Shown here: one piece after another, positions 22,888 through 25,569 of the stretch
Numbering within the stretch: position 1 is the first letter of the stretch
Layout of the letters: the number at the start of each line of letters is the position of its first letter
Origin: Alphaproteobacteria bacterium
GTDB taxonomy: Bacteria > Pseudomonadota > Alphaproteobacteria > Reyranellales > Reyranellaceae
Direction of reading: 5' to 3'
Assembly: GCA_017308235.1 (NCBI GenBank)
Contig: JAFKFL010000021.1
Coordinates: 1 to 64,000, forward strand
DNA length: 64,000 nt
Notes under the pieces: generated by a model
What the model was told of the DNA's origin: nothing
Seen by the model: only the letters and a program-made list of their open reading frames with translations
Database searches by the model: none
Program-made: the position numbers and the translations under genes

Positions 22888-24252
22888 TCATGCGAGCAGG
22901 AGTGGAAAGCGCATGATGAATCTGGCGCCGCGACCGGGGGCGTCCTCAACTGTGATGCTTCCATGGTGGGCTTCGACAATCTTTTTGACGATGGATAACC
23001 CCAGCCCTGCGCCTCCGCTCGCACGCGTGGATTGTCGCCAGAAACGCTTGAAAATCGATTCGCGATTCTCCGGCGGCACTCCGTCGCCGTTGTCGATCAC
23101 GCTGATCGACCCGTCCTGTCCAACGACGATTTCGATGGTAGTGCCTTCGGGGGTGTGATGGAGAGCATTTTCGACGAGATTACGCGTCGCGCGCCGGATC
23201 ATCTCCGCGTTTCCCACGATGAGAACGGGCTCATCCACGCCAATCAATTCGATGCTCTTTCCGCGCTTCAATGCGAGCGGGGCGATGAATTCCGCGATCT
23301 CAACACCAACCTCGTGGAGATCAGCAACGGATTCCGGATCGACCACCGCTGTCTCCAGCTCCGTCGCATCGAGCAACTGACTGACGACCCGGCTCATGTT
23401 CTCGACGTCGCGTCCCAGGGCGCGGCTCGCCTCGCTGTGCGGGAGAGTTTCAATTCTCGTGCGGAGAATCGCGAGCGGCGTCCGTAATTCATGCGCCGCG
23501 TCAGCGGCGAACTCGCGCTGGCTTCGGAAACCAAGCTCCAGCCGATCGAGAGCCTGATTGACCGCTTTCACCAGAGGCAGGATTTCGGGAGGCATGTCGT
23601 CGGTTGGCAGGCGGACATCAAGGCGCGTCGGGCTGATATGCTTCGCGCGGTCCGATGCCCGGTGCAGCGGCCTCATCGCCAGGCGGAAAATGATGGTGTC
23701 GGCAACGAGCAGGAGAAGCAGAACGGGAACGATTATCCAAACTACCTGCCGCAGAAAATTAGCGAGAACATCGTCGACGATCACGTCGCGATGCGACAAT
23801 TTCTCTGCGACCTGGATCCAGACAGGATGGCCGTCAATATCCTTGCGCGCGCTGGCTCCCGCGATGGTCCTTGCGCCACGCGGGGTTCGCGCCCGGTACG
23901 GCACAATTCCGGTCGCATCCGGATCGATAGCAAAGAGCGGTTGCTTGCTCGCATGCGATGAAAAGATCACTTTGCCCGCGTCGTCGATGATCGCATAGCT
24001 GTAACGATCATAGGCGTCGGAATATTGATCGCGGACGCCATCCGGCAGATGCAGCGACCATCCTCCCCTCGATGCCGGCTCCAGGTGACGGGCAAAGATC
24101 TCGATCTGAGCCGCCATCGTGTTCAACTGAAGTGTTGCGATGTCCGACGCCAGCGACCAGTGCAGCACGAACCGCAAAAGAACTGCCGCAACAATTACCG
24201 CCACGAGATGAAGAGCGACGATGCGCGACAGAATGGATTTTTGCAGCGCCAC
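22888..24252 (-). CDS. Sensor histidine kinase
   Basis: 454 residues. Two transmembrane helices (about 10-30 and 165-188) frame a periplasmic sensor domain of about 130 residues; a HAMP region follows (MRPLHRASDRAKHISPTRLD). The H-box is HELRTPLAILRTRIE near 251-265 with the phospho-accepting His, the N-box is RNLVENALHHTPEG, and the G-boxes are IDNGDGVP and GGAGLGLSIVK. Architecture resembles the QseC/TctE/PmrB class. Start is GTG 24250-24252, directly abutting the hairpin array. Its partner regulator lies upstream on the same strand; the divergent RND pump is the likely target. Confidence 0.9.
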   Translation of the reverse strand: MALQKSILSRIVALHLVAVIVAAVLLRFVLHWSLASDIATLQLNTMAAQIEIFARHLEPASRGGWSLHLPDGVRDQYSDAYDRYSYAIIDDAGKVIFSSHASKQPLFAIDPDATGIVPYRARTPRGARTIAGASARKDIDGHPVWIQVAEKLSHRDVIVDDVLANFLRQVVWIIVPVLLLLLVADTIIFRLAMRPLHRASDRAKHISPTRLDVRLPTDDMPPEILPLVKAVNQALDRLELGFRSQREFAADAAHELRTPLAILRTRIETLPHSEASRALGRDVENMSRVVSQLLDATELETAVVDPESVADLHEVGVEIAEFIAPLALKRGKSIELIGVDEPVLIVGNAEMIRRATRNLVENALHHTPEGTTIEIVVGQDGSISVIDNGDGVPPENRESIFKRFWRQSTRASGGAGLGLSIVKKIVEAHHGSITVEDAPGRGARFIMRFPLLLA

Positions 24253-24585
24253 CTAGTGCCCTAAATCTGAAGTTCGCCTCACTGTGCAGCGCCCTCCGGA
24301 GCGAACTTCAGATTCGAAAGGGCACTAGAAAATTTATAATTCTGGTGTGGTTCAAGTTCGGAAGCTCGCTTGAAGCGCTCGCAGAGAAAATGAAGTGAAC
24401 TTCTGAACCGCCACACTAGTGGAGTGAATTTGACATTCGCTACCCACTTTGCAGCAAACCCGTCAGGCGAATGTCAAATTTAAAACTCCACCAGAAACCT
24501 GATAGCTGCTAGTGGTTTTTTGATTCTAACATTTGCAAGAACTCCCTGCCGCAACGGGATGCAAATGTTAGAATCGGACCACTAG
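24253..24585. repeat. Array of four CTAG-bounded hairpin elements
   Basis: Four imperfect palindromes in a row fill the whole gap between the response regulator and kinase genes: 24253-24328 (arms around AATCTGAAGTTCGC), 24342-24419, 24416-24494 (arms around AATTTGACATTCGC; it shares the CTAG with its neighbour) and 24509-24585 (arms around GATTCTAACATTTGCA). Each is 76-79 bp and most ends read CTAGTG or its complement CACTAG; the second and third elements have one end reading CTGGTG/CACCAG. The outermost CTAG at 24582-24585 contains the TAG stop of the regulator gene, and the other end touches the kinase start codon. They have no coding capacity, and each could fold into a long RNA hairpin. 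They look like small non-autonomous elements of one family that insert at CTAG. Confidence 0.85.
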
Positions 24586-25256
24586 TCGCTCTCCATCATC
24601 ACATAGCCAACGCCCCGGATCGTGGTGATCTTGACCTTCGCACCGATATCGAGAAGCTGCTTGCGCAGGCGATGCACATAGACCTCGACGGCATTGGACG
24701 CGACATCGCCGGTCAGGCCGAAAATCTGGTCTTCGAGAAGTTTCTTGGAGACGACGCTGCCTTTGCGGCGCAACAGCAGTTCGAGGACCGCGATCTCCCG
24801 GGCGGAAAGATTCTGAGGCTTCATGTCGACGAATGCCTGTCGGCCATCGGTATCGAACGTCACGTTCGAGAGACGCAATGTGCTGCCGAGCATCTGTCCC
24901 GGGCGCCTGAGGAGCGCTTCGAGCCGTGCTACCAGTTCATCGAAGGCGAACGGCTTGACGAGATAGTCGTCTGCTCCGCTCCGAAGACCGTTGACCCGAT
25001 CCTCCACGCCGCCGCGTGCGGTGAGTACGAGAATCGGAATGGGATCCTTGCGATGCCGCAGTTCGCGCAGGATCGAAAGCCCGTCGCCATCCGGCAAGCC
25101 CAGGTCCAAAATCAGCGCGGCATAACGGGTGGTCCCAAGCACGCTGGACGCATCCGAAACGCTGGCCAGAAGGTCGATCTCGTAGCCGGCCGCCTGCAGC
25201 CCCTTCGCCAGAAGGTCAGCCAGTTCTTCGCTGTCCTCCACGATCAGGACCCTCAT
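24582..25256 (-). CDS. OmpR-family response regulator
   Basis: 224 residues. Receiver domain 1-115 with the acidic pair in VEDSEE, the phospho-acceptor Asp in ILDLGLPDGDGL (about residue 51) and the Lys in DYLVKPFAFDEL. The winged-helix DNA-binding domain (about 125-222) has LSAREIAVLELLLRRKGSVV and VEVYVHRLRKQL. Start chosen at ATG 25254-25256 (MRVLIVEDSEE); the long open frame upstream has no homology. The stop TAG is supplied by the CTAG end of the hairpin array. It is divergent from the RND operon across about 310 bp and likely activates it. Confidence 0.93.
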   Translation of the reverse strand: MRVLIVEDSEELADLLAKGLQAAGYEIDLLASVSDASSVLGTTRYAALILDLGLPDGDGLSILRELRHRKDPIPILVLTARGGVEDRVNGLRSGADDYLVKPFAFDELVARLEALLRRPGQMLGSTLRLSNVTFDTDGRQAFVDMKPQNLSAREIAVLELLLRRKGSVVSKKLLEDQIFGLTGDVASNAVEVYVHRLRKQLLDIGAKVKITTIRGVGYVMMESD

Positions 25257-25569
25257 GGATACGACGGGCTCCTCGATCTGCCGGATGGCACGGCGGGCCA
25301 TGGACGAGCTAATGCCGCTGCCTTCGCGACCCTGCGCGATCTCGTGTTGTAAGTTCCGTGTAAGGTCGGTGTCATGAAGAGCATTGTAAGGCTGCCGTAA
25401 GATGCAACTCCTATAGCAGATATGCTGTGCATCGGATCGAGGTTTCATCATGCGTGCTCGCAAAATCGCTTGAGCCGGCAAGGTCTTGAACCGAAGTCGC
25501 CGATCCCTTGGGAGGCAGGCTGCCTCTCGGCATATCAAGCTGAGCACGAGGAAGTGGAGACACGAAGCA
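25257..25569. promoter_or_regulatory. Divergent promoter region between two-component system and RND operon
   Basis: About 310 bp separate the regulator start from the adaptor start. The part nearest the regulator (25340-25420) contains closely spaced TGTAAG-like motifs: TTGTAAG (25346-25352), TGTAAGG (25358-25364) and TTGTAAGG followed by CCGTAAG (25384-25402). These direct repeats at roughly helical spacing are the kind of pattern bound by OmpR-type regulators. Assignment as the operator is inference. Confidence 0.4.

Follow-up and report, generated by a model that had tools for sequence, protein, structure and literature searches.

A probable CTAG-inserting mobile element with paired hairpins, in two tandem copies between a response regulator gene and a sensor kinase gene

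The window, by which we mean the whole stretch of 64,000 nucleotides that was analysed, carries on its minus strand an OmpR-type response regulator and, downstream of it, a sensor histidine kinase. Between the two genes lies an array of four hairpins, laid out as follows.

22888..24252, minus strand: sensor histidine kinase, whose GTG start directly adjoins unit 1
24253..24419, no strand: unit 1 (core type GAAGTTC), a 167-bp pair of facing hairpins
24253..24328, plus strand: hairpin E1, outer end beside the kinase start; covariance model match of 81.7 bits, E 1.2e-17
24329..24341, no strand: spacer of unit 1, 13 nt, read from the sequence
24342..24419, minus strand: hairpin E2, inner foot altered to CTGG; covariance model match of 64.1 bits
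24416..24419, no strand: CTAG common to units 1 and 2, the mark of one unit inserted at the end of the other
24416..24585, no strand: unit 2 (core type ACATTYG), a 170-bp pair of facing hairpins
24416..24494, plus strand: hairpin E3, inner foot altered to CCAG; covariance model match of 74.2 bits
24495..24508, no strand: spacer of unit 2, 14 nt, AAACCTGATAGCTG, identical in unit L096 of Nitrobacter sp. 62-23
24509..24585, minus strand: hairpin E4, whose outer end is the regulator stop; covariance model match of 77.8 bits
24582..25820, minus strand: open reading frame of the OmpR-type response regulator, with its domains in 24582-25280 and its TAG stop within the CTAG of the unit

An earlier note on this DNA had described four palindromes of about 76-79 bp with ends close to CTAGTG/CACTAG, two of them having a CTAG in common; it had also placed the TAG stop of the regulator in one outer CTAG, and the other end of the array against the GTG of the kinase. 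All of this is confirmed in the window: the palindromes measure 76, 78, 79 and 77 bp, the common CTAG is that of 24416-24419, the stop lies in the CTAG at 24582-24585, and the kinase GTG immediately follows the one at 24253-24256. The word CTAG occurs 5 times within the 333 bases of the array, and 33 times in the whole 64-kb window. The folding energy of these 333 nucleotides, taken as mRNA (minus strand), is -140.5 kcal/mol, whereas shuffled versions give -92.3 +/- 5.0 (z = -9.7). The supposed four separate stem families are in fact a single family with two core types; different as they look, the stems align with hairpins of other genomes. The hairpins follow each other in the order + - | + -: the array is therefore read as two units of differing core types, with one CTAG in common. 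The closest relative of unit 1 is a unit of Nitrobacter sp. 62-13 (L140, 79%). Unit 2 differs from L096 at 6 of its 170 positions (96.5% identity), and four of these six changes affect just one side of a stem or foot, so that pairing decays here instead of being maintained.

A covariance model built from 13 hairpins was used to search genomes for the family. The element is about 165 bp long and bounded by CTAG: a hairpin A, a 13-nt AT-rich spacer, and an oppositely oriented hairpin B. Each hairpin measures 75-79 nt, or 55-56 nt in a short variant, has CTAG at both feet, and follows the plan CTAGTG, NNN, inner stem of about 15 bp (GATTYYGAMRTTYGC), loop of 20-25 nt, inner stem, bulge, N'N'N', CACTAG; the stems, in two parts, have about 24 bp. 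It is the bulge, one-sided, AT-rich and about 4-5 nt long, that sets the direction of the hairpin. In a set of 138 units, nearly all have a + hairpin followed by a - hairpin, with a spacer of 12-14 nt (10-11 nt in a 121-bp variant), and there are 14 cases of adjoining units at spacing -4, that is, with a common CTAG.

The sequences of the arms vary together. Changes on both sides affect half of the 24 predicted pairs in the first 13 hairpins, with few one-sided intermediates. The outer triplets, on whose bases the search pattern placed no constraint, are complementary in 107 of 117 cases, when 24 would be expected after random dealing. The two hairpins of a unit carry different outer triplets, such as TCC with TGG, or GTC with GAG; their core, either GAAGTTC or GACATTYG, is the same in 103 of the 105 typed units (chance expectation about 54). 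When the feet of a hairpin depart from CTAG, the inner and the outer foot are often altered together, and 12 of the 16 changed on both are complementary. These joint changes could be due to template switching from one arm to the other, or to copying during transposition.

How the units enter DNA can be read from pairs of filled and empty sites. Contigs L317 and L328 represent one locus, with an additional unit in L328, and their near flanks otherwise match: the insert in L328 is 161 bp long, a whole unit plus one extra CTAG, and has entered an older unit, intact in L317, at its inner CTAG. When five units of genome G187 are compared with the related genome G291, three matching unit-free sites are found, reading CTAG, CTAA and CATC. 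Insertion turns one CTAG into two, both at the empty site of L284 and in the pair L317/L328, a result in which duplications of TA and of CTAG are indistinguishable. Outer ends other than CTAG are present in 23 of 123 units, and in none of the 23 does the same deviant word stand at both ends, so that these units have no matching direct repeats; given such units, the rule that CTAG is duplicated has exceptions. One unit is nested inside another in L114. Single-CTAG empty sites thus exist for relatives of the element, which bears out the earlier idea of small non-autonomous elements inserting repeatedly at CTAG; what moves, however, is a pair of hairpins, and not each hairpin independently as had been proposed. 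Solitary hairpins do exist (L261, L092, L112), and since the spacer is retained in them, with a CTAG or a stub in place of the partner, we read them as units that have lost one hairpin.

At L114:600-670 and L102:2150-2235, units are inserted at a CTAG that ends another repeat (CGAACCGG...CCACTTCGC...GCTCTAG), which we take to be of the rhizobial mosaic type. At L054:1320-1576, the partner hairpin of one unit has the remnant of a PF01609-type transposase next to it, and appears to be interrupted by it.

We conclude, with a probability of about 0.86, that the array consists of two tandem copies of a non-autonomous mobile element, made of paired hairpins, that inserts as a whole at CTAG. One unit would have entered the CTAG of the regulator stop, immediately before the GTG of the kinase, and the second unit would have entered the terminal CTAG of the first, as the CTAG they have in common suggests. 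Because the arms co-vary, and because the hairpins of a unit differ and yet have a common core, recognition is likely to be of structure: the two paired hairpins would be recognised by a trans-acting enzyme, probably while single-stranded or extruded as a cruciform.

In the genome of the window, the covariance model matches the four hairpins of the array and no others, contrary to an expectation of further copies elsewhere; the earlier note had named a lack of such copies as grounds for refutation. The contig itself is compositionally foreign, which would account for this. Its GC content is 0.59-0.60 over the window, against 0.64-0.65 for other contigs of the same genome, and its tetranucleotide profile correlates better with Nitrobacter loci (r 0.93-0.96) than with the other contigs of its own genome (0.81-0.91). 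The block of DNA seems to have been imported from a Nitrobacter-like source, and the array probably arrived with it, as an island or plasmid, or else the contig was mis-binned. The contig, that is the window and G000:C9:64001-119000, also carries metal-type RND efflux and cytochrome oxidase genes and, further on, restriction-modification and HipA-like genes.

Among 65 genomes of the genus, only one other, G046, has covariance model matches. Class-wide, 20 of 289 genomes are positive, the present one included; they belong to up to 14 family-level groups, in a patchy distribution and often with many copies. A pattern scan of named genomes yields at least 118 stretches, nearly all from Alphaproteobacteria among the matches listed, where the carriers include Bradyrhizobium, Nitrobacter, Afipia, Mesorhizobium, Brucella, Caulobacter, Sphingobium, Chelatococcus and Asticcacaulis. 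In genome G121 the 121-bp variant is present in about 40 copies that are 84-100% identical, and the copies in G046, which is of a different family, are 96% identical to that variant; such similarity indicates a spread that is recent and crosses families. A search of plasmids with the second unit type gave no match, and neither did a search of phage genomes with the element. One unit, L068, lies on a contig binned as Acidobacteria, by contamination or transfer.

One rival explanation is that the element is a MITE of an ordinary DDE insertion sequence. Insertion sequences of the IS5, IS481 and IS630 types favour CTAG-like targets, and a MITE derived from one of them would be, like our element, short, non-coding, terminated by inverted symmetry, found in nested insertions, and flanked by a target word gained on insertion, here one CTAG. 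The protein domains do not follow the element. As consistent mobilisers, IS630 fails with DDE_3 in just 1 of 9 genomes searched, IS4/IS5 with PF01609 in 4 of 9 (a family that leaves out part of the IS5 group), and IS481 with its zipper domain in 1 of 10; genome G204 has none of these three, nor Y1. Moreover, each end of the element is a complete hairpin that varies by compensated changes, down to the terminal triplets, a freedom that a fixed terminal repeat would not permit. No parent transposon was found in the sampled flanks. We consider descent from a common DDE insertion sequence unlikely.

Neighbouring genes give no better candidate: in the sampled flanks, the genes that recur beside units code for ABC transporters, kinases, phage proteins and unit read-through peptides, with no transposase and no Y1, nor was an autonomous form seen in which two hairpins enclose a gene. 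Partial copies in G046 and G121, considered as possible ends of an autonomous element, proved to be solitary or decayed remnants. The mobiliser either belongs to a different enzyme family or has disappeared from many lineages.

Among the known elements closest to it are the REPINs, inverted doublets of REP sequences associated with the RAYT transposases (PMC3116915). Like our units, REPINs are replicative pairs of inverted palindromes, non-coding, with a short spacer and compensatory changes in the arms, and they spread within genomes. That our units are true REPINs, moved by a RAYT, a Y1 tyrosine transposase, is however very improbable, and we regard this reading as largely refuted. The corresponding domain, PF01797, is absent in 12 of the 19 carriers tested, some of which have many units (the genome of the window, G000, and G070, G075, G076, G121, G160, G163, G204, G207, G211, G338 and G341), and no Y1 gene recurs in the sampled flanks. 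The hairpins, of about 76 nt with CTAG at both feet, are about two to three times longer than those of REPINs, which measure 20-40 bp and carry GTAG at a single end (PMC3733652); they have an asymmetric bulge, and insertion takes place at CTAG with a gain of one CTAG. The element is thus REPIN-like but lacks two features that define REPINs, namely the tag and size, and the RAYT. The CGTC-tagged REPs of Alphaproteobacteria, which have stems of 8-9 bp, loops of 4-5 nt and a CGTC tag (PMC3733652), resemble it as palindromes that form mostly inverted dimers without an associated transposase; they differ from its two-part stems of about 24 bp, its loops of 20-25 nt, and its CTAG ends.

No Rfam family matched above its gathering score, and a search of the open literature, outside subscription papers and ISfinder, by sequence words and by description found no account of the element, which may be undescribed. 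More tentatively, and against somewhat unfavourable odds, the data might point to a widespread and undescribed class of miniature elements: a co-evolving hairpin pair, recognised by its structure, for which the enzyme of insertion at CTAG would be other than RAYT/Y1 or a common DDE transposase, possibly through a new mechanism of transposition or hairpin copying that also keeps the feet complementary. The element is a REPIN-like mobile unit without the REPIN transposase, with signs of recent activity; if its mobiliser is identified, one could ask whether bacteria have evolved structure-recognising transposition more than once.

We now turn to the effect on the operon. Regulator and kinase are 329 nt apart in the window, against mostly a 4-nt overlap, and a gap of at most 7 nt, in 28 relatives of the genus having both genes; these array-free, tight joints agree with the earlier proposal of a formerly tight joint pulled apart. 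The kinases of these relatives are 45-48% identical to that of the window, and their joints mostly overlap as GTGA or TTGA, not CTAG; the empty site of the window locus itself was not found among the relatives compared. Of 385 genomes sampled from the class, G423 has the kinase that matches best (52%), and its joint reads TAG-C-GTG. Joining the flanks of the window at one CTAG gives GGAGAGCGACTAGGTGGCG, and the expected array-free site would read GACTAGGTGGCG. In the joined sequence, GGAGAG, near the end of the regulator, lies 7 nt before the GTG, and it is predicted to have been the ribosome site of the kinase; it is currently about 340 nt away from that GTG, and the AGGG that now precedes it is part of the stem of E1.

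The array has thus probably split a tightly joined regulator-kinase pair. Since CTAG restores its TAG stop, the regulator protein stays as it was. The kinase, deprived of the upstream ribosome site and of tight coupling, is probably less translated, so that on sequence grounds a reduction of its translation by the array is likely, and a shift of the regulator:kinase protein ratio is a plausible prediction. The suggestion of a role in termination fares less well: no T-run follows the hairpins, and a span of 700 bp contains 2 weak terminator-like sites, for 0.9 expected.

Another reading is that the array is a conserved RNA device, an attenuator, processing site or stabiliser, selected to set the ratio of regulator to kinase. 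The hairpins would be very stable in mRNA and stand between two genes of one operon; in addition, annotated plasmid copies are located in or beside operons of transporter and catabolic clusters, two of them with a unit CTAG forming the stop of a gene. However, the array is absent in all relatives of the genus having the gene pair, the one-sided changes of unit 2 with respect to its Nitrobacter copy are those of decaying pairs, and Rfam offers no match. Nor are units more intergenic than other CTAG sites: according to a crude gene prediction, 42 of 70 units are intergenic, as are 95 of 157 other sites. All this makes selection as a device quite improbable. Finally, that each hairpin is its own mobile element, landing four times here, would fit the CTAG at both feet of every hairpin and the existence of solitary ones, but is hardly credible in view of the near-universal + - pairing, the fixed spacer, the common core types, filled and empty sites that differ by whole units, and solitary cases that look like deletions.

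For the mobile paired-hairpin element, position with respect to genes seems mostly due to the target word. Outer CTAGs end an open frame of at least 100 codons in 63 of 222 cases, against 17% for other CTAGs. CTAG is rare inside genes and can arise from TAG stops, which allows the elements to land where genes end, and such a landing can uncouple the genes of an operon while leaving the upstream protein untouched, as in the kinase operon studied here. The units of L317 and L328, on contigs filed as viral, lie just upstream of a PhoR-like sensor kinase. On another viral contig (L320:3482-5804), a double-hairpin unit lies within an open frame of 774 amino acids, and does not stop it.
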